From Candidatus Kapaibacterium sp. (GTDB lineage Bacteria; Bacteroidota; Ignavibacteria; Kapaibacteriales; HRBIN21): 37,136 bases of DNA. The stretch is taken from assembly GCA_938084565.1 (NCBI GenBank), contig CALKEU010000010.1, positions 1-37,136 on the forward strand. The letters run 5' to 3'. Shown here in pieces: positions 6,253 through 37,136 of the stretch. The notes under the pieces were generated by a model. That model was not told the DNA's origin. It saw nothing but the letters and a program-made list of their open reading frames with translations, and did no database searches. A program made the position numbers and the translations under genes. Numbering within the stretch: position 1 is the first letter of the stretch; each line of letters begins with the position of its first letter.

Positions 6253-7620
6253 ATGAGATCTCCCTTTTGGTGGCTCCGACGCCTGCGGAACCTTCTCGAC
6301 CGCTTGAGCCTGCGCCATGAGATGGATGATCCGCAGAAGGTGCTGCAGGACGTCTACCGAGATGCGGCCTTCCGCGGCATCAATCTCTGGGTGCTCGTAA
6401 CAGCCACCGTGGTGGCCTCCATCGGCTTGAACGTCAACTCTACCCCTGTGATTATCGGGGCCATGCTCATCTCCCCTCTCATGGGCCCGATCAACGCCGT
6501 AGGCATCAGCTTAGCCATCTACGATATCGAGCTTTTGCGGAAGGCCCTGCGCAACCTCGTGGTAGCCATCATCTTTAGTGTCCTCAGCAGTGCCCTCTAC
6601 TTCGTGCTGACTCCACTAAAGGAAGCGGGCTCCGAACTCTGGGCCCGCACGACCCCGACCTTCTGGGACGTCCTCATCGCCTTCTTCGGAGGACTGTCTG
6701 GGGTCATCGCTGCATTGGGCCGAGAACGGCGTGTCAATGTCATTGCCGGCGTAGCAATTGCTACCGCACTTATGCCCCCTCTCTGTACAGCCGGCTACGG
6801 TCTGGGAACGCTGCAACCGCGCTTTTTCTTCGGTGCCCTCTACCTGTTCCTTATCAACTCGGTCTTCATCAGCGCCTCCGCTTACCTGACTTTCCAGCTC
6901 ATTCGCTTTCCAAACATCGAGCTTGCAGACCGCGCCCAACAGCTGCGCCTACGCCGTACCTTCTTGGCTATTATCCTCTTGACCCTCCTACCCAGCCTCT
7001 ATGTGGCCTACTCCGTCGTTGAGGAAGCCTTCCAAGAAGCCCAGGTGCGCCGCTTTGTGGAGAATGCTTTCCAAGTCTTTTCCACAACCAGTGTCGTCGA
7101 GTACAAACGTCTGCCCGAAGGGGATTCCGTCATTCTCCGCCTGGTGCTCTTTGGAGAGCCACTCGAGGAAGAGCAGCAACGTTACCTCCAACATGAACTG
7201 CGCACCACTTACGGGCTCAGTCGCTACAAACTCGACATCATCCAGGGGAGTAGCACACCGCGGCTCCTCCCAGAGGCAGCACGCCTTTTGGAAGCCACCG
7301 AACGCTCGTACTCGGAAATCCGCCGCCTCACAGATAGCCTACACACCCTCCACCGTCGCCTCCACGAATACGAGGCTCAACAGCACAGGAAAACACGCAT
7401 TGCCCGGGAAATCGCCACCCTTTTCCCTGACATTGCTAGGCTGGGGCTTCAGGAACTCATCCTCACTGGGCCTGAGCCTCCACCCGACACCCTTCTCCTT
7501 GTCTTACTAGAGCTTCCTCGAGGCACCCGCTTCAAGGATGAACGCCGTCTTGCAGAGTGGCTCCGGGAACGCACGGGCTATACTCGCATTCATGTCCTCC
7601 AACTTCCCTCTGGCCCATGA
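6253..7620 (+). CDS. DUF389 family multi-spanning membrane protein
   Basis: A 455-residue protein. The N-terminal half has several hydrophobic segments with the DUF389 hallmarks GLNVNSTPVIIGAMLISPLMGP (about residues 58-80), VIAALGRERRVNVIAGVAIATALMPPLCTAGYGL (about 155-190) and a following FFGALYLFLINSVFI. The C-terminal half is soluble and probably helical (about 250-455). DUF389 proteins are inner-membrane proteins of unsettled function, sometimes linked to TIGR00341/TIGR00271. The ATG at 6253 is chosen because the TATCTTTG box at 6212-6219 lies over the upstream TTG alternative. Its stop overlaps the ATG of the next gene (ATGA), so translation is probably coupled to the T9SS plug-like gene. 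Confidence 0.8.
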   Translation: MRSPFWWLRRLRNLLDRLSLRHEMDDPQKVLQDVYRDAAFRGINLWVLVTATVVASIGLNVNSTPVIIGAMLISPLMGPINAVGISLAIYDIELLRKALRNLVVAIIFSVLSSALYFVLTPLKEAGSELWARTTPTFWDVLIAFFGGLSGVIAALGRERRVNVIAGVAIATALMPPLCTAGYGLGTLQPRFFFGALYLFLINSVFISASAYLTFQLIRFPNIELADRAQQLRLRRTFLAIILLTLLPSLYVAYSVVEEAFQEAQVRRFVENAFQVFSTTSVVEYKRLPEGDSVILRLVLFGEPLEEEQQRYLQHELRTTYGLSRYKLDIIQGSSTPRLLPEAARLLEATERSYSEIRRLTDSLHTLHRRLHEYEAQQHRKTRIAREIATLFPDIARLGLQELILTGPEPPPDTLLLVLLELPRGTRFKDERRLAEWLRERTGYTRIHVLQLPSGP

Positions 7621-8915
7621 GTCTGCAGACCCTGGCAGCGCTGCTGTGCTGTTCAGCACTAACTATAGCACAGACTCCGTGGGTACTGCGCAGCATTCGC
7701 ATCTACGGGGCAGATGATGAAACTGCTCCTCCAATTCTCCTCCTCGGGGGGGATCGCTCTTCTGCTCCGGGATACCCCTTCGTGACGCTGGAGATAGAAC
7801 TCGATGCAGCTGTGCCACCCGCTCTGATTGTACGCTTTGAGCACTGTCGGCCCGATTGGAGTGCGAGCGAGAATATCTTCCTCACCATTGGCATGCTCGG
7901 TACGAGCTTGTTCTCCTGGGAACCAGGGCCTGCTGGCTCACGCTACTACACCTATCGCGGACGGCTCCGCATCCCCAACCCCCAAGTCACCATTAGCATT
8001 GCTGGCAACTGGAAGCTGAAGGTATACGAGCACACCTCCGACCACCCTATTGCCGAGGCGCGCTTTTTCGCCGTACGCCCTGAGGGAAGCTGCCGCGTCG
8101 TAGCCTACGGAGATCTCTACGCCGCTAGCCCCGGGGTCAGCCCAGCGGCTGTGACGCTGGAAGCGTGGGTACAGCTATCCCCGAGGTTCAACATCGATGA
8201 GCGGTTGCACACCGTCGTCTTTTACCGCAACCATCGCTGGTTCGAGCCCTACATCGTCTCTCAGGATCCTCGGCTCCGGACCGCAACCGATCGCCTCTAT
8301 CGACACCCCTACAGCACGAGCATTGCCGGAATAACGCCCGGGACGAAGATCTTTCGCGCTGAACGGCTGCCGGCACAGAATGAATATCGAGTACTCGATC
8401 TGCGCAACCCCACCATATTTCCCCCAAACACGCCGCTGCCGATTCGTCTTCCGCTGGCTGACTTGCGGCGCAATGGGAGCTTTACCGAGTGGGCCGATGA
8501 CGGCGCTGCCCAGACAGCTTCGCTCGCCCCCTACCTGCAAGACTACGTTCCGCTCGAGTTCATTCTCGACCCGGAGGGAGCACCGGCACTGCCGCAAGAG
8601 GTCTTCGTCGTAGGCTCTTTTAACAACTGGCTTCCCACAGCGCAGTGGCGCTTAAGCTACGACGCCGACGAACGCCTCTACCGACTTCGCCAGCTCGTCC
8701 GCCGTGGACGACACAACTACCTCTATGCTACTGGACGCCTCAATGCCGATACCGGCGCTATTGAGGAGCTCTCCTTCGAGGAGTGGGAAGGTAATACCAC
8801 GGCGACCCGCTCTTCGTTCTGGGCCTTCGTCTACTACCGCCTCCCCGATTTCGGCGGCTACGATACGCTCATTGCCGTGGGAGCTGCCACCCTCCAAGGG
8901 CCCCTGCGCTATTAG
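7617..8915 (+). CDS. T9SS plug-like protein (DUF5103 family)
   Basis: A 432-residue exported protein. MSLQTLAALLCCSALTIAQ is a signal peptide. The body matches the DUF5103 pattern known from the T9SS plug protein: an early RSIRIYG strand, PPILLLGG, an RFEHCRPDWSASE motif near residues 80-92, then YTYRGRLRIPNPQVT and GNWKLKVYEH near 125-140. A later segment (VFVVGSFNNWLP, about residues 335-346) resembles an E-set/CBM48 Ig-like domain. In characterised systems the plug closes the periplasmic side of the SprA translocon; this role is carried over by family. The start overlaps the preceding stop (ATGA). The stop codon TAG shares bases with the TAA of convergent flgE in the sequence TTAG. Confidence 0.7.
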   Translation: MSLQTLAALLCCSALTIAQTPWVLRSIRIYGADDETAPPILLLGGDRSSAPGYPFVTLEIELDAAVPPALIVRFEHCRPDWSASENIFLTIGMLGTSLFSWEPGPAGSRYYTYRGRLRIPNPQVTISIAGNWKLKVYEHTSDHPIAEARFFAVRPEGSCRVVAYGDLYAASPGVSPAAVTLEAWVQLSPRFNIDERLHTVVFYRNHRWFEPYIVSQDPRLRTATDRLYRHPYSTSIAGITPGTKIFRAERLPAQNEYRVLDLRNPTIFPPNTPLPIRLPLADLRRNGSFTEWADDGAAQTASLAPYLQDYVPLEFILDPEGAPALPQEVFVVGSFNNWLPTAQWRLSYDADERLYRLRQLVRRGRHNYLYATGRLNADTGAIEELSFEEWEGNTTATRSSFWAFVYYRLPDFGGYDTLIAVGAATLQGPLRY

Positions 8916-12420: not shown

Positions 12421-13032
12421 TTAGAACTGTACTGCTCGGAGAACTCCCTCGAAGATGCGTTCACACTCCTCTTCCCCTGGAGGATCTATTGGCCGCACAG
12501 AGAGAGGAACGAGCGCTACCTCATAGACGCTACCAATGGAGGAGACGAAGAGGGCCACCCGTACATGCCGGGGCCCCCGTCCGAAGCGGTAGACAGCAAA
12601 GCTCCTCGCACCTACGCGGATGATGGAGAGGTCGCTGACTAGGCGAACCGCACCAGCCGTACGGGCCTGACGCCGGGCAAAGCTCTGCCGCGCTAGCTCC
12701 AGTAGATCATACTGACCAGCTGTGTCCCCCGAAGCACGCTGCAGGAGCACAAGCGTCAGAGCAAGTGTGTAGTCCGGGTTGACTGCTACAGCAACCATCC
12801 CGCTAGGGATTCGCTCCCCAAGATCGGCCAAGAACCACCCTCGCGGGATGAAAAACAACACATCCCCTAGTGCTGAACGCACCGGCTCAGCCGCAAGGGG
12901 TATTTCCGGTAACACAATCTCCTGCACCCTGACTCCTCCGACCTCTGGGGCACGCCAGATCGCGCACCCGGCACCCAGTAGCCCCCAGCATATCACTATT
13001 GCCCACAGACACCGTCCCCATGCTGCCCGCAT
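12421..13032 (-). CDS. Predicted lipoprotein of unknown function
   Basis: A 203-residue protein. The N-terminus MRAAWGRCLWAIVICWGLLGAGC is a lipoprotein signal with an LGAGC lipobox. The mature part holds FFIPRGWFLADLGE, VAVNPDYTLALTLVLL and FVSSIGSVYEVALVPL, a mixed alpha/beta pattern that resembles PsbP/Mog1-like folds (DcrB-type lipoproteins). That fold guess is inference. The ATG at 13032 is chosen because it begins the signal sequence; the frame is open for another 64 codons upstream, but that stretch overlaps the DnaA-box-like cluster and has no protein character. Its promoter must therefore lie inside or beside that cluster. It precedes the flagellar genes and may be in their operon. 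Confidence 0.6.
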   Translation of the reverse strand: MRAAWGRCLWAIVICWGLLGAGCAIWRAPEVGGVRVQEIVLPEIPLAAEPVRSALGDVLFFIPRGWFLADLGERIPSGMVAVAVNPDYTLALTLVLLQRASGDTAGQYDLLELARQSFARRQARTAGAVRLVSDLSIIRVGARSFAVYRFGRGPRHVRVALFVSSIGSVYEVALVPLSVRPIDPPGEEECERIFEGVLRAVQF

Positions 13033-13080
13033 CCGAGATTTCCCTCCCCGGCGACCACCTCTCAACGCCGCTCCCCAGCC

Positions 13081-13291
13081 CTTTCCACACGTTTTTCCAC
13101 ACTCTGTGGAGAGCTTTCCACACACCTGTGGATATCCCTCGAGGTTTTCCACATCCTCTCCTCCCAGGCCCCCATGATGGGGATACTCGAGCAGACAATC
13201 CACACTCCTACTTGCCCTTTCCACACCCCCGGAAGCCCTGCAATTACAGGAAAATCAGCGCTCTGGAGGCATACTTTTCCACATTTCCACA
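13081..13291. other. Cluster of ten DnaA-box-like nonamers, candidate oriC or DnaA-regulatory locus
   Basis: Within 211 bp of the 294-bp spacer between serS and the lipoprotein gene, the core TCCACA occurs ten times. Forward sites: CTTTCCACA 13081, TTTTCCACA 13093, CTTTCCACA 13114, TTTTCCACA 13145, CAATCCACA 13196, CTTTCCACA 13217, TTTTCCACA 13275, ATTTCCACA 13283. Reverse sites: CTCTCCACA 13105-13113 and ATATCCACA 13127-13135. Random expectation for a hexamer on both strands over this length is about 0.1. Three copies differ from the DnaA consensus TTATCCACA at one base only. The first five are 9-13 bp apart and the last two share one base. No long AT-rich unwinding element is obvious, and dnaA is not in the window. 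Confidence 0.6.
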
Positions 13292-13326
13292 GCCCTCATC
13301 ATTGCCAGGCTCTCTTCCCTGGGGAA

Positions 13327-14598
13327 CTAACTCCGATCGATGATACTGAAGCCGCAGTAGGGCTGCAGAGCTTCTGGCACCCGAACCGTCCCCTCCGGCG
13401 TCTGAAACTGTTCCAGCAAGGCGACCATTAGGCGTGGAGTTGCCAGACCACTGCCATTGAGAGTGTGGACAAACTCTGGCTTCGAACCAGCCTTGGGCCG
13501 GTAGCGGATATTCGCCCGCCGTGCCTGGAAGGCCTCAAAATTTGAGCAACTTGAAACTTCCAGCCACCGCTGCTGACACGGCGACCACACCTCAAGGTCG
13601 TACGTCTTAGCACTTGCAAAGCCCATATCTCCAGCACACAGCAAGACGACTCGGTACACAACCCCGAGCGCTTGGAGCACTGCCTCTACCTCAGCCACCA
13701 GAGATTCAAGCTCCTCGTACGAGCTTTCCGGAGAGCAGAATTTGACCAGCTCAACCTTGTTGAACTGGTGCATTCGGATGAGCCCACGAGTTTCTCGTCC
13801 GTAGCTTCCAGCCTCGCGACGGAAGCACGCCGAGTAGCCGCAGAGCTTCAGTGGTAAGCTCTCTGCCGGGAGGATCTCGTCTGCGAAGTAATTGGTCAGA
13901 GGAACCTCAGCCGTTGGTATCAGGAAGAGCTCGTCCCGACCGATGTAGTACATGTCCTCCTCTAGCTTTGGCAGCTGTCCGGTTCCCTCCATGGCTTTCG
14001 GCAGAACGAGGAAGGGGGGAAAGATCTCCCGATAGCCATGGTGGCGGATGTGGAAATCGAGCATGAAGTTGATGAGTGCCCGTTCCAACTGGGCTCCCTT
14101 TCCGGTGTAGAAAACGAAGCCGCTCCCGCTGACTTTGGCGGCTCGGCTGAAGTCAAGGAGGCCGAGTTCTCGAGCGATCTGGAGGTGGTCTTTACGGAAT
14201 TCCACTGGTTGAGGCTGGCCCCAGCGCCGGATCTCGCGATTGTCGGCAGCCGTCGTACCGTCGGGAACGCTCGGGTGGGGGATATTAGGCAAGGAGAGCA
14301 AGCGGAGACGCAGCTGATTTTCCACCTCGCGGAGCTCATCTTCCAGTGTGCGGGCTTGTTCAGCAAGCATGCGGAGTTGCTCGAGGAGCTCCGAGGGATC
14401 ATCGCCGCGATGCTTCGCCGCTGCTAGCTCCTCCTGCGCTCTTTTCCGGCGGTGTTGCAGGGTATCCAGAGAACGGATGAGCTCACGGCGCTGGGCGTCT
14501 AGCTGGAGGAGGCTATCGAGACAGATGTGATTGCCGCGACGGCGAAGCTGGGCCTCTACCAGAGCAGGATTTTCCCGGATGTAGCGGAGATCGAGCAT
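13327..14598 (-). CDS. serS: Serine--tRNA ligase
   Basis: A 423-residue class II aminoacyl-tRNA synthetase. MLDLRYIRENPALVEAQLRRRG opens the N-terminal tRNA-binding arm, a long coiled coil to about residue 105. The catalytic core contains FVFYTGKGAQLERALINFMLD, GTGQLPK, FLIPTAEVPLTN (motif near 235), CFRREAGSYGRETRGLIRMHQF (motif 2) and LNGSGLATPRLMVALLE (motif 3). Length matches the family (about 420-430). The enzyme charges tRNA-Ser and also serves tRNA-Sec where present. The ATG at 14598 is the standard N-terminus; the frame extends upstream without homology. A TATTTTTG box at 14633-14640 on this strand gives a short leader of about 28 nt. Confidence 0.95.
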   Translation of the reverse strand: MLDLRYIRENPALVEAQLRRRGNHICLDSLLQLDAQRRELIRSLDTLQHRRKRAQEELAAAKHRGDDPSELLEQLRMLAEQARTLEDELREVENQLRLRLLSLPNIPHPSVPDGTTAADNREIRRWGQPQPVEFRKDHLQIARELGLLDFSRAAKVSGSGFVFYTGKGAQLERALINFMLDFHIRHHGYREIFPPFLVLPKAMEGTGQLPKLEEDMYYIGRDELFLIPTAEVPLTNYFADEILPAESLPLKLCGYSACFRREAGSYGRETRGLIRMHQFNKVELVKFCSPESSYEELESLVAEVEAVLQALGVVYRVVLLCAGDMGFASAKTYDLEVWSPCQQRWLEVSSCSNFEAFQARRANIRYRPKAGSKPEFVHTLNGSGLATPRLMVALLEQFQTPEGTVRVPEALQPYCGFSIIDRS

Positions 14599-14632
14599 AG
14601 GAAATATCGGGGTGGACAGCTGCAGCAGGAGC

Positions 14633-14640
14633 CAAAAATA
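14633..14640 (-). promoter_or_regulatory. Bacteroidota-type -7 box (TATTTTTG) for serS
   Basis: TATTTTTG on the minus strand matches TAnnTTTG exactly. The predicted start near 14626 is about 28 nt upstream of the serS ATG. A TTG lies only 12 bp further upstream, closer than the usual -33 spacing. Confidence 0.5.
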
Positions 14641-14697
14641 CCAAAAACGAGCCAAGTTTGGGAACTCGCTCTTTAGAATCCCCGGAGGCGAAGTGCG

Positions 14698-14705
14698 TAT
14701 TTTTG
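14698..14705 (+). promoter_or_regulatory. Bacteroidota-type -7 box (TATTTTTG) for pyk
   Basis: A second exact TATTTTTG, on the plus strand, 57 bp from the serS box and pointing the other way. It predicts a start near 14712 and a pyk leader of about 115 nt. A TTTAG at 14672-14676 lies near the -33 position. The leader contains a GGGAGCTCCC-type palindrome near 14801-14814, too tight to form a normal hairpin loop. Confidence 0.5.
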
Positions 14706-14827
14706 CCTTGCTGGAACGTGTACCTCTGTGGATGCCGGCTGGTGGGGGATGCATCCTGCTGTAGTCCTGGTAAGAGAAGCGTGGGCGTCATCGCACTCGA
14801 GGGGAGCTCCCTCCTGGGGCAGGCATC

Positions 14828-21309: not shown

Positions 21310-22335
21310 TTAGCCACCGTGGTCCTCCGAAAGGTCAAGACGCGGCAGATCCGTAACGCGGCGAATACCTATCTGACCGGCATCGCGGCGTTGCATAGCC
21401 ACGAGAGCCGCTGTATAGATGTCTTTCCACGTCAGCCCGAACTTCTCCAGCAGCTCCTCCGGTTCTCCACTGCCACCGAAGGTGTCACGGATGCCCACAA
21501 ACTCGATGGGCACGGGGTAGTTTTTAGCGAGCACTTCTGCCACAGCGCTGCCCATGCCGCCATGGATCTGGTGCTCTTCGGCGGTGACAACAGCTCCGCA
21601 CTCCCGGGCAGCTGTAACGATGGTCTCCACATCCATTGGCTTGATCGTGTGGTTGTTGATGACGCGGGCACGAATCCCGCGCCGGGCTAGCATATCGGCC
21701 GCTAGCAGAGCCTGCCAGACCATGGCGCCGCACGCGATGATGGCCACGTCGGATCCATCTCGAAAAACTTCAGCCCGCCCGAGCTGGAAGGGGGTATCCT
21801 CAGTGGTAAACCACGGGACGCTGGCACGCCCGAAGCGGACGTAAGCAGGGCCCCAGATTTCGCCAATGGCGATGGTGGCCTTCTTTGTCTCCATGTAGTC
21901 GCAGGGGACTACCAACGTCATGTTCGGCAGCGAGCGGATGACAGCAATGTCCTCCAGCGCCTGGTGTGTTGCCCCATCAGGGCCGACGCTAATGCCAGCA
22001 TGCCCCCCACCGATTTTGACGTTGACGTAGTTATAGCACACGGAGATGCGCAGCTGGTCTGCATTCCGGAAAGCGCAGAAGGTCCCATAGCTGGCAAAGA
22101 AGGGGATCTTGCCCGACAGAGCTAGTCCAACGGCAATGGTCGTAGCGTTCTGCTCTGCCACCCCGATAGAGAAGAAGCGGTCGGGGAAGCGATCGCGGAA
22201 GAAGGAAGTCATGACCGACTCGGTGATATCGCCCCCGAGCACGACGACATTATCGTAGCGTTCGCCCAGGACGACGAGGCCCTCCCCGAAGCCTTGGCGT
22301 GTTGGTTTATGGCCGAGAAGAGGAAACTCTGGCAT
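21310..22335 (-). CDS. Transketolase, C-terminal subunit
   Basis: A 341-residue protein carrying the pyrimidine-binding and C-terminal domains of transketolase. FFSIGVAEQNATTIAVGLALSGKIPFFASYGTF (about residues 54-86) contains the Glu that activates thiamine diphosphate. GGGHAGISVGPDGATHQALEDIAVIRSLPNMTLVVPCD is the next conserved block, and GCGAMVWQ-type and EEHQIHGGMGSAVAEVL blocks follow. This half-length form pairs with the N-terminal subunit gene about 600 bp upstream on the same strand. The heterodimer would perform pentose phosphate carbon shuffling or a related ThDP reaction. A lipoprotein gene lies between the two halves, ending 5 bp before this start. Confidence 0.92.
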   Translation of the reverse strand: MPEFPLLGHKPTRQGFGEGLVVLGERYDNVVVLGGDITESVMTSFFRDRFPDRFFSIGVAEQNATTIAVGLALSGKIPFFASYGTFCAFRNADQLRISVCYNYVNVKIGGGHAGISVGPDGATHQALEDIAVIRSLPNMTLVVPCDYMETKKATIAIGEIWGPAYVRFGRASVPWFTTEDTPFQLGRAEVFRDGSDVAIIACGAMVWQALLAADMLARRGIRARVINNHTIKPMDVETIVTAARECGAVVTAEEHQIHGGMGSAVAEVLAKNYPVPIEFVGIRDTFGGSGEPEELLEKFGLTWKDIYTAALVAMQRRDAGQIGIRRVTDLPRLDLSEDHGG

Positions 22336-22953: not shown

Positions 22954-23889
22954 TCACGTTTCAGCGGCTTCCACAACGGCAATGTAAGGGTCTTCCAACT
23001 CCTGCAGTGCTCGGAGTGCCTGCTCAGGGGTTGGTGGTTTACCGTGCCAGCGGTAGTCGTCCTCCATGAAGGAGACACCGCGCCCCATCTTGGTGTGCGC
23101 GATAATGACGGTCGGCCGGCCAATTCGGCGGCGGTGATTTTCCAGGAATTGGTCAAAACAGGCCATGAGCTCAGCGTAATTGTGTCCGTCGCACTCTAGG
23201 ACAGTGCAGCCGAAGGCCTCGAACTTTTTGTCGAGGGGATAGATGCTCATTACCTGATGGACGCGCCCGTCGATTTGGCAGTCGTTGTTGTCCACAATCC
23301 AGCAGAGGTTGTCCAGCCCATAGTGGGCTGCTGCCATGGCGGCTTCCCAGACGGACCCCTCTTGCAGTTCGCCATCGCCGGTGAGGGCAAAGACACGACG
23401 GTCATTTTTGTCGAGCCATTTGTCGCTCAGTGCCATTCCTACGGCGATAGAGATACCCTGTCCGAGCGATGCCGTGGAGGTTTCGATTCCGGGCAGCCCC
23501 ATGTCGCGTCCTGGATGGCCTTGGAGGCGGCTGCCATACTTGCGCAGGGTACGGAGTTCCTCAATGGGGAAGAACCCGGCCCGTGCCAGAGTCGAGTAGA
23601 GCACTGGGCAGAGGTGGCCGGCACTGAGCACGTAGCGGTCCCGTTCGGGCCACCAGGGGTCCTTTGGACGGTAACGGAGGTAGCCCCCGAAGAAGAGCAC
23701 GGCGTGGATGTCGGCGGTTCCCAGCGGGCCACCGCTATGGCCGGAGCCCGCTAGCACGAGCATTTTGATGATGTCGCGCCGGATCTCACGGGCAATTTCG
23801 GCAAACTCTTCCGGGCGACGGCGGCGGTTTTCGTATACGGTTGGGCTAAAGACAATGCGCAGCTTGTCAAGCGTCATGGCATCGGGCAT
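22954..23889 (-). CDS. Transketolase, N-terminal subunit
   Basis: A 311-residue protein with the ThDP pyrophosphate-binding half of transketolase. AGSGHSGGPLGTADIHAVLFF (about 47-67), SAGHLCPVLYSTLARAGFF, LPGIETSTASLGQGISIAVGMAL and LTGDGELQEGSVWEAAMAA with WIVDNNDCQ (GDG...NN cofactor motif, about 165-200) are all present. It pairs with the C-terminal subunit at 21310-22335. The start at 23889 (MPDAMTLDK) is preferred over the frame-open position at 23907, because a TAAGTTTG box lies at 23905-23912; the internal Met at 23877 is also possible. No strong Shine-Dalgarno sequence is seen. It heads the six-gene leftward run to 16878. Confidence 0.92.
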   Translation of the reverse strand: MPDAMTLDKLRIVFSPTVYENRRRRPEEFAEIAREIRRDIIKMLVLAGSGHSGGPLGTADIHAVLFFGGYLRYRPKDPWWPERDRYVLSAGHLCPVLYSTLARAGFFPIEELRTLRKYGSRLQGHPGRDMGLPGIETSTASLGQGISIAVGMALSDKWLDKNDRRVFALTGDGELQEGSVWEAAMAAAHYGLDNLCWIVDNNDCQIDGRVHQVMSIYPLDKKFEAFGCTVLECDGHNYAELMACFDQFLENHRRRIGRPTVIIAHTKMGRGVSFMEDDYRWHGKPPTPEQALRALQELEDPYIAVVEAAET

Positions 23890-23904
23890 GCGTGGATGGA
23901 GGCA

Positions 23905-23912
23905 CAAACTTA
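23905..23912 (-). promoter_or_regulatory. Bacteroidota-type -7 box (TAAGTTTG) for the transketolase run
   Basis: TAAGTTTG on the minus strand fits TAnnTTTG. The predicted start near 23898 would leave a leader of only 9-21 nt, depending on which ATG (23889 or 23877) is used. No clear -33 TTG at the standard distance. Confidence 0.4.
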
Positions 23913-29354: not shown

Positions 29355-30028
29355 CAGCATTCTCCCTGTTCTGTGAGTCGGCATACGACGAGGAGTTTCT
29401 GGTTCTGCTCAAACCACGGCGCACCTTGGAGCTGGAGACGATGGACCGTAGCCTGCAGCGTTGGGAAGAGGGTCGAGGCTGCGTTTAGTTCGCCGGCGAT
29501 ATCCCCGCCCTTATAGGCCACGAGCATACCTGTGGGCTTGAGCAGGGGGCAGGCCCACTGGAGCAGCCTGGGCAGCGGGGCAACGGCTCGGGCGAATGCG
29601 CAGTCGAAAGCGCGCTGGTATGCCGGATCAGTTGCAAGCTCCTCAATGCGGGCACGCTTGACCTGGAGGTGGGGGAGCCCCGTATGGGCCGCAAAGAGGG
29701 CCACCAGCCGGGCTTTCTTCGCCACAGCCTCTACGAGCAGCATGTGCACATCTGGCCGCGCAATGGCCAGAGGAATACCCGGCAATCCCCCGCCGGTGCC
29801 AATATCGATGCAACGGGCCTTCGGCGGGAGCGTAATGTACTTGAGGGCCGCCAGCGCATGCAGGATGTGGCGCTCGTAGAGATGCTCAATGTCCTTGCGT
29901 GAGATTAAGTTGATGCGCTCGTTCCAGTACCGTAGCTCCCGCCCATAGCGCTCGAGCGCCTTCAGCTGCTGGGCTTCGAGCACAATGCCATTGGCTGCGC
30001 AGATGGTCCACAGCTGTGCCAGATCCAT
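29354..30028 (-). CDS. rsmG: 16S rRNA (guanine(527)-N(7))-methyltransferase RsmG
   Basis: A 224-residue SAM-dependent methyltransferase, also called GidB. LKALERYGRELRYWNERINLISRKDIEHLYERHILHALAAL is the family N-terminus; CIDIGTGGGLPGIPLAIARPDVHMLLVEAVAKKARLV holds the SAM-binding motif I (IGTGGGLPG). CAFARAVAPLPRLLQWACPLLKPTGMLVAYKGG completes the core. It methylates G527 of 16S rRNA. The ATG at 30028 gives the family length; the frame is open about 40 codons upstream over a low-complexity Arg/Ala-rich stretch. It follows the FmdB-type gene by 46 bp and overlaps the M14 start by one base. Confidence 0.95.
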   Translation of the reverse strand: MDLAQLWTICAANGIVLEAQQLKALERYGRELRYWNERINLISRKDIEHLYERHILHALAALKYITLPPKARCIDIGTGGGLPGIPLAIARPDVHMLLVEAVAKKARLVALFAAHTGLPHLQVKRARIEELATDPAYQRAFDCAFARAVAPLPRLLQWACPLLKPTGMLVAYKGGDIAGELNAASTLFPTLQATVHRLQLQGAPWFEQNQKLLVVCRLTEQGEC

Positions 30029-30074
30029 AGCGCCCTCGGCCGTGGCACTCGGGCGAGGGCCGCCGGCAGAGGAG

Positions 30075-30347
30075 CTACTCCTGTTCGGAGGCGTTGCTCG
30101 CGCTGCTCGAGCTCGTCTCTGCCTTCTCCGCTGTGGAGCCTTTGCGCGCATAGTCGGTGATATAGAAGCCGCTCCCCGTAAAGATGAAGCCTACATTGCG
30201 GCTCAGGAGACGTCGGACGCGCCCCCTTCCTTTGGTAGGCTGCTCGCATACATCGGCAGGACAGCTCTCCAGCGGAGGCTGTGTCATGGACTGCAGGTAT
30301 TCGAAGCGCTTCCCGCACGTCTGACAGACGTACTCATAGATCGGCAT
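30075..30347 (-). CDS. FmdB-type zinc ribbon protein
   Basis: A 90-residue protein. MPIYEYVCQTCGKRFEYLQSM is the characteristic FmdB/CxxC_CxxC_SSSS start with the first Cys pair (CQTC). The second knuckle reads ESCPADVCEQ near residue 30, with an extra residue relative to the standard CPxC spacing. VRRLLSRNVGFIFTGSGFYITDYA follows, also conserved. The acidic/serine-rich tail (SSSSASNASEQE) is typical. FmdB proteins are putative regulators of unclear function; a DNA-binding role is inferred only from the zinc ribbon. The start lies inside the end of trpS (14-bp overlap), so translation is probably coupled. Confidence 0.88.
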   Translation of the reverse strand: MPIYEYVCQTCGKRFEYLQSMTQPPLESCPADVCEQPTKGRGRVRRLLSRNVGFIFTGSGFYITDYARKGSTAEKAETSSSSASNASEQE

Positions 30348-31389
30348 GGCTCGAGTCCTCCATAGCAATACGGACACCTTCCACGTACGGAGCTTGGGGG
30401 AGGAAGCCCATGCGATCGTAGACGAGCCGGAGGGTCTGCTGAGCCCGAGCTCGGGCACGTTCGGCTCCGTGAGCCAGAAGGCTCAAAAGGTAGCCGCTGT
30501 CGCGCTGCAACCGCTCGAATTCCTCACGAATCGGGCGGAGGAACTCAATGAGCGCCTCGGTCAGCGCTGCTTTGAGCTCAGCATAGCCGGCTCCGGCAAA
30601 TTCCTGTTCGATATCGGCAATACTCTTGCCCGTGGCAATGTGGTAGAGCACCATAAGGTTGCTCAGCCCAGGCCGATTCTGCTCATCGTAGCGCACCTCA
30701 CGCCCGGAGTCCGTGACAGCACGCCGGATCTTCCGCCGGATGGCCTCCGGAGAGTCGGTCAGAAAGAGCACGGCGTTCTCGTTCGGATCCGATTTGGACA
30801 TCTTCTTCCGCGGCTCCTGCAGGCTCATGATCTTGGCCCCAAGGGGTGGAATGTAGGGTTCCGGGACGCGGAAGGTCGTCCCGTAATAGTGGTTGAACCG
30901 TTCAGCAAGATTGCGTGTCAGCTCCAGATGCTGCTTCTGGTCGGCTCCCACGGGGACCAGATCGGCCTGATACAGGAGAATGTCGGCCGCCATGAGAATC
31001 GGGTACGCAAAGAGCCCAACATTGACGTTGTGGCGATGCTGGGCGGATTTCTCCTTGAACTGCGTCATGCGGCTACATTCCCCCATACCCGTCAGGCATG
31101 CCAGCACCCAGCTCAGCTGCGTGTGTTCGGGAACGTGTGATTGGACGAAGAGCACACTCTGCTGCGGATCAATACCGCAGGCCAGGAAGAGCGCAGCTGT
31201 CTCCAATGTCCGCTGCCGCAGCTCGGCCGGATCCTGGCGAACGGTGATCGCATGGAGGTCGGCGATCATGAAGTAGCACTCGTGACTCTGCTGCAGAGAT
31301 ACCCAATTGCGTAGGGCGCCCGTATAGTGCCCGATTGTCAACCGCCCCGAAGGCTGAATCCCGCTGAGGATGACTGGGCGCTGCTCCAT
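30334..31389 (-). CDS. trpS: Tryptophan--tRNA ligase
   Basis: A 351-residue class I aminoacyl-tRNA synthetase of the bacterial TrpRS type. VILSGIQPSGRLTIGHYTGALRNW contains the HIGH-type motif (IGHYTG, about residues 16-21). FAYPILMAADILLYQADLVPVGADQKQHLELTRNLAERFN is the tryptophan-binding region. PRKKMSKSDPNENAVLF gives the KMSKS loop (near 195). Length matches the family (about 330-350). The ATG at 31389 is preceded by AGGAAGGAG, a strong Shine-Dalgarno sequence, so the longer frame to 31449 is not used. A 79-nt nested palindrome (31472-31550) lies between tRNA-Val and this gene. No Trp-codon-rich leader peptide was noticed. Confidence 0.96.
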   Translation of the reverse strand: MEQRPVILSGIQPSGRLTIGHYTGALRNWVSLQQSHECYFMIADLHAITVRQDPAELRQRTLETAALFLACGIDPQQSVLFVQSHVPEHTQLSWVLACLTGMGECSRMTQFKEKSAQHRHNVNVGLFAYPILMAADILLYQADLVPVGADQKQHLELTRNLAERFNHYYGTTFRVPEPYIPPLGAKIMSLQEPRKKMSKSDPNENAVLFLTDSPEAIRRKIRRAVTDSGREVRYDEQNRPGLSNLMVLYHIATGKSIADIEQEFAGAGYAELKAALTEALIEFLRPIREEFERLQRDSGYLLSLLAHGAERARARAQQTLRLVYDRMGFLPQAPYVEGVRIAMEDSSHADL

Positions 31390-31471
31390 GCTGCTCCTTC
31401 CTGAGAGACACACGCCACTGACTGGCAACGTGCTACGGGGACGAACCATTTGCCTGCTCTATTGCGCAAAG

Positions 31472-31550
31472 GGAGCGATAGGGGTGGGGGCAAGAGAAGA
31501 GGGGGATTCGGCGGCGAAAGATCTCTTGGGGGGCAGACCCCTATCGCTCC
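31472..31550. repeat. 79-nt nested inverted repeat with G-runs between tRNA-Val and trpS
   Basis: GGAGCGATAGGGGT (31472-31485) is perfectly inverted as ACCCCTATCGCTCC (31537-31550). Inside lie CAAGAGA (31491-31497) with TCTCTTG (31522-31528), and TTCG-GCGG-CGAA (31507-31518). This forms a long stem-loop in three nested steps, 14, 7 and 4 bp. On the plus strand the unpaired parts are purine-rich with runs of 4-6 G, so a G-quadruplex is a competing structure. The stem starts 4 bases after the tRNA 3' end. Only TTT follows the stem on the minus strand, so it is not a standard intrinsic terminator. It may be a processing or termination signal, a leader element of trpS, or a small mobile repeat. 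Confidence 0.75.
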
Positions 31551-31553
31551 GTG

Positions 31554-31628
31554 TGGTCGCTGGTGGATTCGAACCACCGACCTTCCGCGTGTGAAACGGA
31601 CGCTCTGGACCAACTGAGCTAAGCGACC
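31554..31628 (-). tRNA. tRNA-Val (anticodon CAC)
   Basis: Folds as a complete cloverleaf on the minus strand: acceptor GGTCGCT/AGCGACC (7 bp), D stem GCTC/GAGC, anticodon stem TCCGT/GCGGA (last pair T-G) with loop TTCACAC giving anticodon CAC (codon GUG), variable AGGTC, T stem GGTGG/CCACC with TTCGAAT loop. Discriminator is A. The next bases are CAC, so the 3' CCA is not encoded and must be added by the Cca enzyme. A TATTTTTG box lies 14 bases upstream. Confidence 0.95.
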
Positions 31629-31641
31629 AGCAGAGCGTCCG

Positions 31642-31649
31642 CAAAAATA
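31642..31649 (-). promoter_or_regulatory. Bacteroidota-type -7 box (TATTTTTG) for tRNA-Val
   Basis: TATTTTTG on the minus strand, identical to the serS and pyk boxes, ends 14 bases before the first tRNA base. The predicted start near 31635 leaves a 5' leader of about 7 nt. trpS may be transcribed from here as well, since no other match was seen between them. Confidence 0.55.
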
Positions 31650-31664
31650 CGGATTGGCCACCTT

Positions 31665-32285
31665 TTAGGCGGGCGCAAGGCGGAGTACGCAGGAGAGCCG
31701 CAGGAAGCGCTCCCGCTGCGGTTCGGGGCGCACCAGAATGAGGCGGATACTGAGCAGCCAGCGGGGGCGTGAGCCGGCTCTACTGCGCACCAGTGCACAT
31801 CGCAGGCGGGCGTTGGGCAGAGGAGGCTGCCCACGCTGCCAATGCCACATACGGCGGGCAACGACCCCATTGTTTGCCTCCCAGAGAGTCAGCCGCAGGG
31901 AGCGCACCGCCGCCAGATCTTCGCTCTCCTCCCCGCCGCGCAGCCCATCGAGCACAAGCTCTGCCGTGTCGAGCCATAACCGCCGTTGCGGAGGAGGCTC
32001 TGTCGAGACAATCCGAAGGCGCAGACGGAGTGTCTCCAGCCCCGCTGCCGTGTCCAGCACTGCTTCATCGACCTCAGCAGCATACCCCAACCAGCGGAAT
32101 TCTTCGCCCTCTGGCATCTGCCTGAGCTCTGCATTCAGCTCTACGGTCTCTTCCACGGTCAGCTCAATGGAGCGCTTCCGGGGGACTACCTCTCGCTCCG
32201 TCGGTAATTCGACCGGCGAGACGCAGGAGCCCACGGCCAGCAGCCCCGCACCGAGGACGACTCTACCGACCAAGCGTGATACCAT
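31665..32285 (-). CDS. Predicted lipoprotein of the sigma/anti-sigma operon
   Basis: A 206-residue protein. MVSRLVGRVVLGAGLLAVGSC is a lipoprotein signal with an AVGSC lipobox. The mature part is beta-rich (RSIELTVEETVELNAELRQM, LETLRLRLRIVSTEP, RLWLDTAELVLDGL, LRLTLWEANNGVVARRMW, RPRWLLSIRLILVRPEPQRERFLRLSCVLRL), suggesting a sandwich fold. No family was recognised. Its ATG overlaps the anti-sigma-like gene by 23 bp, so it is the third gene of a sigma, anti-sigma, lipoprotein operon. A partner or sensor role for that system is inferred from context only. Confidence 0.6.
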   Translation of the reverse strand: MVSRLVGRVVLGAGLLAVGSCVSPVELPTEREVVPRKRSIELTVEETVELNAELRQMPEGEEFRWLGYAAEVDEAVLDTAAGLETLRLRLRIVSTEPPPQRRLWLDTAELVLDGLRGGEESEDLAAVRSLRLTLWEANNGVVARRMWHWQRGQPPLPNARLRCALVRSRAGSRPRWLLSIRLILVRPEPQRERFLRLSCVLRLAPA

Positions 32286-33339
32286 AGCTCAGCCCCGCCT
32301 TTCGACTGACGAACCAGGTGCCATCGACCCGATAGCCCAAGAGGCTCCCTTCGAGCCCAACGAGGGCATGAGCGGAAGCCCCCAGCGGCACAGATGTTCC
32401 AAGCCACAGCTTCCCCACCGGGCCGATGAGTGTGGCGGCAACCGTGAAGCGAAGCTCGGCTGTTAGCCCCGAAGGCGTAGAGGCCATGCTCCACCAGTAA
32501 CTCGGCCCCGCCCACAGCAGTGTCGGACGCTGCCGATAGAGGACCCCATCGCGGGTGGAGAATTCCTGTGAGAAGGCCTCACTGCCAATCTCGAGCCCAA
32601 CGGCATGCCCGGGAGCCAGCGGGGTCCAGACCCCAAGGGCTACGTCGCGCAGCCCTATTGGACCCCGACTCGGCAGTGCAACGTCCGGCCAGCTGTACTC
32701 CCATGCGCCGAGCGAGCGCAGAGAGAAGAACAGCGGCGGGCTCTCCCGGTACGGCACAGCGTTTGGCGCCTTCGGCAGCGGCACAGGGCGGCTGTCGGCC
32801 GTGGGAGAAGGCAGCGGGAGCAGACGCGGCTCGGCCAACGTGAGCGCAGGACCGGCAGTGCTCGAGAGCACGGGCTCTGAAGCCACGGCCGTGGGTTGCC
32901 CCTGCGGCTCCGATGACACCCTCGATGGGGCTGCCGGTGGAGTGCTCGGAATGTGGGGCCGTACCTCAGCCGGGGTCGGAGCCGCAAAGGGCTGCTGGAC
33001 GGGCTCCGGCAGATGCGCTCTGCCCAGCAGCAGAAAGCCCACCACGGCAAGCCCAGCCCCGCCGATTGCTCCCAAGAGGGCAGCAACCCAGAGGTAGGGA
33101 TGCCGCCACAGTGGCCGCCGCTGCGTCAAGCCCAGCTGCTCGAGGAGGGCCTCCTGCACGGACGCCGATGGCGGTTCAGGCTCCTGGCGCAGCAGCCGAT
33201 TGAGCACCACAAGCTCCCGAAATGCCGCTCGGAGCTCCTCTTCGGTTGCTAACCGCCAGAAGAGCTCCTCCTCTTGCTCGATCGGCAGCTCCCCCTCGAG
33301 CAGTTCGTGTAATCGCTGTAGGTACTCCTGGCTCTTCAT
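32263..33339 (-). CDS. Anti-sigma-like membrane protein with beta-rich C-terminal domain
   Basis: A 358-residue protein. The N-terminal ~70 residues (YLQRLHELLEGELPIEQEEELFWRLATEEELRAAFRELVVLNRLLR) are helical and resemble the cytoplasmic part of anti-sigma factors (an acidic -LEGEL-x(n)-L/A-x- pattern), but have no HxxxCxxC zinc site and no Cys. A membrane segment spans about 83-105 (LWVAALLGAIGGAGLAVVGFLLL). A Pro/Ala/Ser-rich linker runs to about 195. The remainder (196-358) is beta-rich with barrel-like strands (HAVGLEIGSEAF, GLTAELRFTVAATLI, AHALVGLEGSLLGYRV, AGLSYGITLGR). It directly follows the ECF sigma gene, overlapping or abutting its end. The ATG at 33339 (GAGGG eight bases upstream) is preferred to a GTG at 33354 that overlaps the sigma stop. 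Confidence 0.65.
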   Translation of the reverse strand: MKSQEYLQRLHELLEGELPIEQEEELFWRLATEEELRAAFRELVVLNRLLRQEPEPPSASVQEALLEQLGLTQRRPLWRHPYLWVAALLGAIGGAGLAVVGFLLLGRAHLPEPVQQPFAAPTPAEVRPHIPSTPPAAPSRVSSEPQGQPTAVASEPVLSSTAGPALTLAEPRLLPLPSPTADSRPVPLPKAPNAVPYRESPPLFFSLRSLGAWEYSWPDVALPSRGPIGLRDVALGVWTPLAPGHAVGLEIGSEAFSQEFSTRDGVLYRQRPTLLWAGPSYWWSMASTPSGLTAELRFTVAATLIGPVGKLWLGTSVPLGASAHALVGLEGSLLGYRVDGTWFVSRKAGLSYGITLGR

Positions 33340-33350
33340 GGGAGGATCCC

Positions 33351-33938
33351 TCACCGTTGTGAACTCGAGAGACGCAGCTCCTGTATGTACGGAGCCAATA
33401 TCTGCCGCAGCTTCTCCTTGGCGCGGAAGACCCGCACCTTGGCCGTTGTCTCCGTGATGCCCAGCAGTTCTGCAATCTCAGCATACGCCAGCCCGAGCTG
33501 CTCCCGTAAGACAAGGGCCTCGCGATACTCCAGCGGAAGCTGAGTCATGGCCTGCTGCAGCAGCCCAAAGAGCTCCGCCTGCTCAACCGCTCCAACGGGC
33601 GAGGGGCTTGAACCGTGGAGCTCTTCATCGAACTCGTACGCAGAGCGGTTGTCCCGCTTGAAATTCAGACACACATTGCGCGCAATGCGGAACAAGAAGG
33701 CCGGCACATTGCTCATCCTCCGCTCCTGCTGGGCACTCTGCCAGATGCGGATGAAGGTCTCCTGCAGCACATCGTGGGCATCGTAGCGGTTGCCCATAAT
33801 GCGAGCGCAGTAAGTGTAGAGCCGGTGTGCGTAACGGGCATAGAGCTCCCGAAAGGCCGCCTCCGCTTCCCGACGGTTCCCAGAGCGGAGCTGCTGGAAG
33901 AGCTCCTCATCGGCTGCCGAAGACATAGGGCGGGCCAT
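33351..33938 (-). CDS. ECF-type RNA polymerase sigma-70 factor
   Basis: A 195-residue extracytoplasmic-function sigma factor. Region 2 (about residues 27-95) reads FRELYARYAHRLYTYCARIMGNRYDAHDVLQETFIRIWQ with VPAFLFRIARNVCLNFKR; region 4 (about 125-180) reads LPLEYREALVLREQLGLAYAEIAELLGITETTAKVRVFRAKEKLRQIL with a clear helix-turn-helix. Regions 1.1 and 3 are absent, as expected for ECF factors. It sits at the head of the operon with the anti-sigma-like and lipoprotein genes. It is divergent from mgtE with a 196-bp spacer (33939-34134), which probably holds its promoter; no clear autoregulated consensus was identified. The internal ATG at 33926 is also possible as start. Confidence 0.92.
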   Translation of the reverse strand: MARPMSSAADEELFQQLRSGNRREAEAAFRELYARYAHRLYTYCARIMGNRYDAHDVLQETFIRIWQSAQQERRMSNVPAFLFRIARNVCLNFKRDNRSAYEFDEELHGSSPSPVGAVEQAELFGLLQQAMTQLPLEYREALVLREQLGLAYAEIAELLGITETTAKVRVFRAKEKLRQILAPYIQELRLSSSQR

Positions 33939-34134
33939 GGCACTTGCAATAACCCTCAGCTGGCTCAGCCGTTACGGCATACCCCTACAGGCTGCGCCCG
34001 AGGCGGTAATTTCGCACACTTTGTGCACTACAGCTGCCCATGGTGATGCAGACAGTGTGCGGTCAGGCGGCTCCTCTCATGGGTGGCAGAGATCGTCCCG
34101 ATTGGACTGCCCGTATCACAGCGGCGAGGGAGCC
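33939..34134. other. Divergent intergenic region between the ECF sigma gene and mgtE
   Basis: This 196-bp spacer must hold the promoters of both divergent genes. A TAATTTCG at 34007-34014, one mismatch from TAnnTTTG, lies about 120 nt upstream of mgtE. I could not recognise a Mg2+ riboswitch fold or a terminator here. Confidence 0.35.
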
Positions 34135-35481
34135 ATGCTCAAGGAGCTGCTCAAACCCGAAATCCAAGAACTACTGGAGCAGCGTCGCTGGAATGAGCTA
34201 CGGGAGGCCTTGGCAGAGTGGTCCCCACCGGAGATTGCCGAGCTGCTGCTGGATCTCAGCAAGCACGAGCGCGTCCTCCTCTTCCGGGCTCTGCCCCGAT
34301 GGCTTGCCGCAGAGGTCTTCTCCCACCTGGAGGCCGCCCAGCAAGATGCACTCCTCCAGGAGCTGACCGACCAGGAAACACGTGAGCTCCTCCACCGCCT
34401 CAGCCCCGACGACCGGACGGCCCTGCTGGAGGAGATGCCTGCCACCGTCACGCGCCGCCTCCTGACCCTGCTCGAGCCGGAGGATTTCCGCGAAGCCAGC
34501 TTCCTGCTCGGCTTCCCCGAGCAGAGTGTCGGACGTCTGATGACCCCCGATGTCATCACCCTCCGCCCCTACTGGACGGTCAGGGAGGCCCTGGAACACC
34601 TGCGCCGCTACGGCCGCGATAGCGAAACGCTGAACCAGCTCTACGTCACCGACGACGAAGGCCATCTGCTCGGCGAACTCCCTCTGCGTACCCTCGTCCT
34701 GGCCGATGAAATGGCCGTGGTGGCCGATCTGATGAACTACGCCGTCGTCAGCCTCTCGGCCTTCGAGGATCGGGAGGCAGCCGTCCACGCCATGCAGAAG
34801 TACGATCTGCCTACCCTCCCCGTGGTGGATTCCGATGGGGTGCTGCTGGGCATTGTGACCTTCGACGACGTCATGGATGTGGCCGAGGAAGAGGCAACGG
34901 AGGATTTCCAGAAAATCAGCGCCGTCGCCCCGCTGGAGTTCTCCTACCGCCAGGCCTCCATCCCCCAACTGTGGCGACGCCGCATCGGCTGGCTGCTCCT
35001 GCTGCTGATTTCGGATTTCCTGACAGCTACCGTCATTGCCGCCTATGAGCATGCACTGCAGAGCGTCATCGCCCTCTCCTTCTTCATCCCGATTATCATC
35101 GGCACGGGCGGCAACGTCGCAACGCAGTCTTCTACCCTCATCATTCGGGCCCTGGCACTGCGCGAGATCGGACCCCCGGACTGGTTGCGCGTCTTCCTCA
35201 AGGAGCTGGGCGTCAGTGTTCTGCTCGGGGCTGTGCTGGCTCTGGTGGTCTGGCTGCGGGGCTTCTTCTGGCGCGGCGGCCCAGAGGTTGCAGCCGTGGT
35301 CGGCATGAGCATGTTCTTCATCGTCATCTGGTCCAACTTCATTGCCGCCCTCTTCCCCATCGCCGCAAAGCGCGTCGGAATTGATCCGGCCGTGATCTCG
35401 GGCCCCTTCCTGACGACCTTCATCGACGTGACGGGGCTGCTCATCTACTTCACGATGGCCACCTTCATTTTAGGCCTGTAG
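34135..35481 (+). CDS. mgtE: Magnesium transporter MgtE
   Basis: A 448-residue protein of normal MgtE length. The cytoplasmic MgtE N domain (about 1-130, LSKHERVLLFRALPRWLAAEVFSHLEAAQQDALLQELTDQE) is followed by a CBS pair (about 137-255; SVGRLMTPDVITLRPYWTVREALEHLRR, VVDSDGVLLGIVTFDDVMDV). Five membrane segments follow, including the pore region FFIPIIIGTGGNVATQSSTLIIRALALREI and ISGPFLTTFIDVTGLLIYFTMATFILGL. It exports or imports Mg2+ in a gated manner; the N and CBS domains sense Mg2+. The ATG at 34135 is preceded by GAGGGAG and begins MLKELLKPEIQELL; the frame is open 66 codons further, but without MgtE sequence. It is convergent with the restriction-modification gene (5-bp gap). Confidence 0.94.
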   Translation: MLKELLKPEIQELLEQRRWNELREALAEWSPPEIAELLLDLSKHERVLLFRALPRWLAAEVFSHLEAAQQDALLQELTDQETRELLHRLSPDDRTALLEEMPATVTRRLLTLLEPEDFREASFLLGFPEQSVGRLMTPDVITLRPYWTVREALEHLRRYGRDSETLNQLYVTDDEGHLLGELPLRTLVLADEMAVVADLMNYAVVSLSAFEDREAAVHAMQKYDLPTLPVVDSDGVLLGIVTFDDVMDVAEEEATEDFQKISAVAPLEFSYRQASIPQLWRRRIGWLLLLLISDFLTATVIAAYEHALQSVIALSFFIPIIIGTGGNVATQSSTLIIRALALREIGPPDWLRVFLKELGVSVLLGAVLALVVWLRGFFWRGGPEVAAVVGMSMFFIVIWSNFIAALFPIAAKRVGIDPAVISGPFLTTFIDVTGLLIYFTMATFILGL

Positions 35482-35486
35482 CGCTG

Positions 35487-37136
35487 TTAGGAGTTCCAGT
35501 GTATGCAGTGGGCCTCGGCCGCCTGGTAGAGCGGCTCGAGCTCCCGCTGCAGCTCGATCGTGCGGGCAATGGCCGTGGCAATGCGGAGGTAGTGCCGAAA
35601 ATCCCAGTCCATCTTCCCCTTGCGGTCTTTGAGCCACTTTTCTAACACCCGGTAGCCGCCAATCTGGTACTCCCACATCTCGGGGGTGATGCCCTCGAAG
35701 TACTTGTCTTTATTCACAGCCACGCGGCAGGTGTCGGGGTCATAGCGCACGAACTCAATTTTGTCGCTGCCGGTGCCCTGGTACTTAGCAACAGGGGGGT
35801 CAAGCTCGGGGCTGCGCAGGAGGTGCAGATCAATCAGGCGCTGGCCCAGGGCGGCAAGCTGCCGAAAGAGCGCCCCATCCGCTGTGAAGGGCACCCGGGG
35901 GAAATCCACCCGCAGCGCCTCCGCATACTTCTGGCGGTAGGTGGGGCTGTAGAGGACCGCATAAATATAGGCCAGCACCTCCTCCGGCGTGGGCTCGAAG
36001 CCGTAAGCCTCCGAAAGCTTCGGCAGAAGCCACGGCGCCAGGTTGGGCTCGCGCCCCGAAGGATGCAAGTCCCCTGCCTCGGCAGAAGGGTAAAGGTAGA
36101 GGGGAAAGAGAGACTCGCAGCCCTTGTTATCCGAGCGAATAACGCCATCCGAAATGATGGTATCTGCTACAAAAAAATAGGTGCATTCCCTGTCTGGCAA
36201 TTGTTGCCGTCGTGTTATCAACCCCACATTCTCCCCTGCCAGCATGTGGCGCATGAAACCAGGGTATGCCCACCGAAGGAACCCTTTGTTCTTACCCGTG
36301 TAGTACGTGTAGCGAATGTCAAAGGGTCGGTAGAGGATTGGGACGATTTTATCACGACTGAGGCCGCTTTGCCTTAGATCTTCTTGAGCAGTGCTAATCT
36401 TCCAGTCACGAGCATCCCTACCAAGGTTATAGGTTTGCCGTGCCAGCTCTACATCCATATAGGCAAATACGCGTACGGTACTCCATACCTCCTCTGGGGT
36501 AAAGTGGATTGCAAGCCGATCTCGACCTGCCATAATGCCGGTCTGATTGACTGGGAAAAGCTCTGTGATACGCGGCCAGGAGTGGTACTTTTCCAGGCCC
36601 TCTTTTTTGCGTGGGATGAAGAAGTAGAAGGGAGTCTCTGGGTGGATAGGCTGGTAGCCGGCGGTTCCCAGCGTGTGGGTTTCCAGCCAGTCGTATTTCT
36701 CTTCGCGGCGGCCGTAGAGCTCGGCATGGTAGACCCCTTTCAGCTCGGGGCGCCCGTGCTTGACGAAGATCCCAATCGCCACGCCCTGGCGAATGTCAAA
36801 GACATTCTCATCGGGTTCGCCACCCGGCGCTCGCTCCCGCTTGAGGCTATTGCCATGGAGGTCCAGAAGGAAAATCTCGTCAAAGGTCTTTAGCAGGCTC
36901 TGCCGCATGCCGCGAAAGGTGGGGTTATCCAAGTAGCCGTGGTTGGTAATCATGGCCACGATGCCGCGCCCAGCCTTCTGAACCTTCCACTGGGCAAAGC
37001 GCAGGAACTTTACATAATCGTCTTGCAGCCATTTGGGGTTTTTCTCACCCAACGGCCGGCCGTCCACGGAGTAGTAGCTCTGTGCGCCCTCTACATCGGT
37101 TTTGAGGAGGGAGTCTATCCAGGGATTGCGGTTAGC
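35487..37136 (-). CDS. Type ISP-like restriction-modification enzyme, C-terminal part (5' end outside window)
   Basis: The frame is open from the right edge to the stop at 35487, giving about 549 residues of a longer protein. The visible N-terminal portion (YYSVDGRPLGEKNPKWLQDDYVKFLRFAQWKVQKAGRGIVAMITNHGYLDNPTFRGMRQSLLKTFDEIFLLDLHGN, then ENVFDIRQGVAIGIFVKHG) matches the region after the NPPY motif of type ISP/Eco57I-like N6-adenine methyltransferases. The C-terminal ~300 residues (YIYAVLYSPTYRQKYAEALRVDFPRVPFT, YFEGITPEMWEYQIGGYRVLEKWLKDRKG) match the ISP specificity domain. The methylase NPPY motif and any helicase/nuclease lie beyond the edge. GC falls to about 49 % between 36121 and 36480 (by manual count), compared with 58-68 % in sampled flanking lines. 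Confidence 0.8.
   Translation of the reverse strand, partial: ANRNPWIDSLLKTDVEGAQSYYSVDGRPLGEKNPKWLQDDYVKFLRFAQWKVQKAGRGIVAMITNHGYLDNPTFRGMRQSLLKTFDEIFLLDLHGNSLKRERAPGGEPDENVFDIRQGVAIGIFVKHGRPELKGVYHAELYGRREEKYDWLETHTLGTAGYQPIHPETPFYFFIPRKKEGLEKYHSWPRITELFPVNQTGIMAGRDRLAIHFTPEEVWSTVRVFAYMDVELARQTYNLGRDARDWKISTAQEDLRQSGLSRDKIVPILYRPFDIRYTYYTGKNKGFLRWAYPGFMRHMLAGENVGLITRRQQLPDRECTYFFVADTIISDGVIRSDNKGCESLFPLYLYPSAEAGDLHPSGREPNLAPWLLPKLSEAYGFEPTPEEVLAYIYAVLYSPTYRQKYAEALRVDFPRVPFTADGALFRQLAALGQRLIDLHLLRSPELDPPVAKYQGTGSDKIEFVRYDPDTCRVAVNKDKYFEGITPEMWEYQIGGYRVLEKWLKDRKGKMDWDFRHYLRIATAIARTIELQRELEPLYQAAEAHCIHWNS

Follow-up and report, generated by a model that had tools for sequence, protein, structure and literature searches.

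A predicted chromosomal replication origin beside serS in a Candidatus Kapaibacterium genome

Gene surroundings and DnaA boxes of the serS spacer

The window (the whole stretch of DNA that was analysed, 37,136 nt) is the entire contig C10 of a Candidatus Kapaibacterium sp. genome of 1.87 Mb in 16 contigs (G000). It contains an intergenic spacer between a putative lipoprotein gene and serS (Table 1). To the left of the spacer, the lipoprotein gene, a fliK-like gene, flgD and flgE lie on the minus strand, and to the right serS, also on the minus strand, is followed by a pyruvate kinase gene on the plus strand. The product of the lipoprotein gene matched no Pfam or NCBIfam family; its ATG is at 13032 on the minus strand, 49 bp from the first of the boxes described below. 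The flagellar hook genes adjoin a gene for a Type IX secretion system plug protein (7557-8915, plus strand), which scored above the cut-off of Pfam PF17116 and below the curated cut-off of NF052315. Transketolase is encoded as two ORFs on the minus strand, the C-terminal half at 21310-22335 and the N-terminal half at 22954-23907, each approximately 90 % identical to its genus counterpart, and these were read as a two-subunit transketolase.

Table 1 Features of the predicted origin and its flanks (positions in the window)
Feature	Position	Strand	Evidence
Putative lipoprotein gene, other flank of the spacer, conserved in the genus	12421..13032	-	Signal peptide with LLGAGC lipobox
Intergenic spacer, lipoprotein gene to serS; predicted oriC	13033..13326	.	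Box cluster, skew switch, conservation
Array of ten DnaA-box-like nonamers (NNNTCCACA)	13081..13291	8 on +, 2 on -	Scan; 0.15 expected per 211 bp
Facing boxes CTTTCCACA (13114-13122, +) and ATATCCACA (13127-13135, -)	13114..13135	.	Six-genome alignment
Core tandem box pair TTTTCCACATTTCCACA, oriented towards serS	13275..13291	+	Six-genome alignment; 16-genome search
Predicted unwinding side, core pair to serS 3' end	13292..13326	+	Inference from pair orientation; weak trio-like run
serS, seryl-tRNA synthetase; adjoins the cluster throughout the genus	13327..14754	-	TIGR00414, 499.8 bits; synteny
Cumulative GC skew minimum of the window, inside serS	13815	.	Cumulative skew

A motif scan of the window located ten TCCACA hexamers within the 211 bp of the array, starting at 13084, 13096, 13105 (minus strand), 13117, 13127 (minus strand), 13148, 13199, 13220, 13278 and 13286, so spaced that successive starts are 8-58 bp apart. 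Three of the ten boxes are TTTTCCACA and one, on the minus strand, is ATATCCACA. The expected number of hexamers in Table 1 was calculated from how often they occur in 732 kb of this genome. With a Poisson model, approximately 1e-10 clusters of this kind would be expected genome-wide. Among the approximately 1.03 Mb of the genome that was sampled, no other 211-bp span had more than three TCCACA. The paired pattern TTTCCACA-N(0-30)-TTTCCACA gave four matches in the whole genome, all four of them at the serS spacer, and its reversed control gave none. The spacer is slightly AT-enriched (43.5 % AT), its richest 40-mer (57 %) lying near 13239-13281, and a scan of the window for AT content detected no strong unwinding element rich in AT.

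These results agree in every detail with the sequence-only reading of the locus, which had reported the ten hexamers in 211 bp with their strand split and spacing, the three copies of TTTTCCACA and the one of ATATCCACA, and no obvious AT-rich element. That reading had also considered that the nonamer might be common in the genome. This was true of single boxes, which are not special since the full nonamer TTWTCCACA has 21 copies genome-wide, but not of paired boxes, which were found nowhere else in the genome.

GC skew and the location of dnaA

The GC skew of the window was about -0.14 between 6 and 13.3 kb and +0.085 between 13.3 and 30 kb, and remained positive to the right of serS across genes on both strands. 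Within the window and 1.03 Mb of sampled stretches, which come from every other contig of the genome, a clear switch from minus to plus was seen only at this locus. On contig C7 of the same genome, at about 65-75 kb, the skew goes from plus to minus, which is probably the replication terminus, as expected. At the right end of the window (30000-37136), around and beyond a tRNA-Val gene (31553-31628), the skew was near zero, unlike the positive values from 13.3 to 30 kb.

The genome has a single copy of dnaA, located on contig C16, with no box cluster at its locus and only one loose box nearby. The box-binding signature in domain IV of the encoded DnaA, GGRDHTTVLHA, is present and canonical. In four other members of the genus (G001-G004) dnaA and the box cluster are also found on different contigs. 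Adjacency of oriC to dnaA is common and not required (PMC10225481), and the cluster described here is not adjacent to it.

Conservation of the cluster in the genus and the order

All six genus members studied, the genome of the window and five others, carry the box cluster at the serS 3' end. In their alignment the core pair TTTTCCACATTTCCACA was near-invariant and more conserved than the surrounding spacer, the facing boxes ranked second in conservation among the blocks of the array, and the 14-mer TCCACATTTCCACA was intact in all six genomes, the remaining spacer having diverged. In G000, G002, G003 and G004 the skew minimum was inside serS and 511-527 bp away from the core pair; in G001 the distance was 708 bp. 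On the 590-kb contig C1 of G004, negative skew between 20 and 67.5 kb gave way to positive skew in all stretches sampled to 590 kb, and on the 215-kb contig C7 of G002 negative values up to 107.5 kb were followed by positive ones as far as 200 kb; in the stretches read from these contigs, dense clusters were seen only at 68124 and 106354-106561, respectively. The perfect 12-base parS core TTTCACGTGAAA was absent from the whole genomes of G000 and G003 and present in the other four genus members, lying 50-56 kb from the origin in G002 and G004.

In a SerS tree the order was placed beside Ignavibacteriales/Melioribacter, and Ignavibacteria bacterium RIFOXYC2_FULL_35_21 and Bacteroidetes bacterium clean1621 fell inside it. 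A SerS scan of named genomes found no close relative, the best identity being 57-59 %. The core pair TTTTCCACATTTCCACA was present as one exact copy per genome in all 16 genomes of the order that were searched (reversed control none). Box clusters 3' of serS were also found in members of families f2, f6 and f8, the counts in other families including seven boxes against 0.28 expected in G010, five against 0.23 in G012 and four against 0.20 in G006. In the complete genome G015 (f2) the skew switches at approximately 1.42-1.48 Mb, serS is at 1473793 with three boxes within 500 bp, and parS is at 1477003 and 1477127, so that skew minimum, boxes, serS and the two parS sites coincide within sampling resolution. 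The skew of another complete genome, G008, was too weak for fine placement of the origin. No box cluster was present 3' of serS in Melioribacteraceae and neighbouring outgroup loci, and the link to serS therefore appears to belong to the order of the window.

In two families of the order the exact core pair was found at other addresses, beside rmlD/mnmG in f4, where parS sites flank mnmG, and beside anmK/rpiB in f9, in both cases about 6 kb or less from parS. The pair therefore marks an origin rather than a regulator of serS.

The boxes of the core pair are 8 bp apart and their nonamers overlap by one base. A trio-like run, CTC-ATC-ATT (three NTN triplets), begins 3 bp past the pair, and runs as long were reached in 16 % of shuffles; DnaA-trio repeats were thus not significant in the window, and G002, G003 and G004 have at most two triplets. 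DnaA-trios have been defined by the presence of three or more NAN trios (3'-NAN-5') no further than 16 bp from the boxes (PMC8287927), and by the letter of this definition, without statistical support, the window contains them. In the sister family f2, on the serS side of the pair, G006 has 11 triplets (reached in none of 2000 shuffles) and G029 has six (reached in 1 %). Unwinding is placed on the serS side because the pair points there and f2 carries trio-type runs there, and the skew minima, which lie on the same side, fit this placement without proving it.

Origin model, alternatives and significance

The possibility that the boxes are a DnaA-controlled promoter, regulating the lipoprotein-fliK-flgD-flgE genes, which begin at 13032, and that the locus is not an origin, draws on the closeness of the first box to the lipoprotein gene, on the flagellar genes which come next and on the retention of this order in the genus. 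The gene order around the locus is fully conserved in the genus, and therefore order alone cannot separate an origin from a promoter. The distance from serS to the lipoprotein gene is approximately 840-870 bp in G002-G004 compared with approximately 300 bp in G000, G001 and G005. The extra approximately 550 bp (G002 contig C7, G003 contig C2, G004 contig C1) lies on the lipoprotein side of the box cluster, and the boxes stay against serS even though the lipoprotein gene is that much further away. Regulation of these genes also leaves the skew minimum unexplained, as it does the core pairs of f4 and f9, which have no flagellar genes beside them, and is considered very improbable as the explanation of the locus.

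Slightly less probable again is a DnaA-titration site, similar to datA or a DnaA-reactivating sequence, which would buffer free DnaA while oriC lies elsewhere. Titration sites have many boxes, lack a strong unwinding element and are far from dnaA, all of which can be said of this locus, but titration gives no reason why the cluster should fall at the skew minimum in all the genomes tested, or why it should be the sole one seen in the genome. A datA-like cluster would be separate from the origin, and this one coincides with the skew minimum. Either promoter control or titration could be a secondary role of the locus. Chance, or a repeat artefact of a hexamer common in intergenic DNA, for which the 21 single TTWTCCACA nonamers might speak, was refuted by the counts, i.e. 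ten hexamers where 0.15 were expected, paired boxes unique in the genome and a cluster in all genus relatives.

The spacer is thus very likely the chromosomal oriC of this bacterium, predicted to consist of a DnaA array with opening on the serS side. The sequence-only reading had proposed oriC or a DnaA-controlled promoter, with skew, the site of dnaA, conservation beside serS and a better cluster elsewhere among the points to check. These four favour its first proposal: the skew minimum falls here, at 13815, all genus relatives retain the cluster, dnaA, on another contig, lacks one, and the sampled genome showed no rival. Control of the lipoprotein-flagellar genes is retained from its second proposal as a possible side effect, one that fails to explain the skew.

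In the proposed model DnaA, encoded on another contig, would bind the array of TTTCCACA-type boxes, and the tandem pair would anchor a DnaA filament extending towards serS. The filament would open the duplex in or just beyond 13292-13326, helicases would load at the opened DNA, and two forks would presumably depart in opposite directions. The unwinding site is less certain than the assignment of the origin, because there is no strong AT-rich element and trios are clear in the sister family and not here.

The locus resembles bacterial oriC regions with DnaA-box arrays (Ori-Finder/DoriC) in being an intergenic cluster of near-consensus boxes at the skew minimum, one per chromosome, and differs from them in its flanks, serS and a lipoprotein/flagellar operon, dnaA being the usual indicator gene. 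The basal unwinding system of Bacillus subtilis and others consists of two DnaA boxes and DnaA-trios (PMC8287927). The tandem pair at the edge of the array is similar, as are the trio-type runs that follow it in f2, whereas the window has three loose triplets, no better than shuffled sequence, and boxes 8 bp apart. Origins linked to gidA/mnmG have their likeness in f4 of the same order, where the core pair is by rmlD and mnmG with parS flanking mnmG, and differ from the window's genus, in which the origin is beside serS. No earlier report of a serS-linked origin was found in a literature search of incomplete coverage, most subscription journals being outside it. The locus is almost certainly an oriC linked to serS in a lineage close to Ignavibacteriota, ordinary as an element and unreported at this address.

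A more tentative proposal, regarded as possible but rather doubtful, is that the origin core (the pair and its unwinding side) has been relocated, as a cassette, from one neighbourhood to another within the order, i.e. serS in f1, f2, f6 and f8, rmlD/mnmG-parS in f4 and anmK/rpiB in f9, and that the GC-rich genus of the window opens its DNA with neither an AT-rich element nor recognisable trios. This proposal is based on the positions of the pair and the proximity of parS, with good skew support for the placements in f1 and f2 only.

The assignment fixes a replication origin for a lineage known mostly from assembled genomes, in which the usual marker, dnaA, misleads. Correct orientation of the genomes, estimates of growth rate from read coverage and studies of strand bias become possible. 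The order also provides a natural series in which to follow how origins change neighbours, and what takes the place of trios or AT-rich DNA where the origin is GC-rich.
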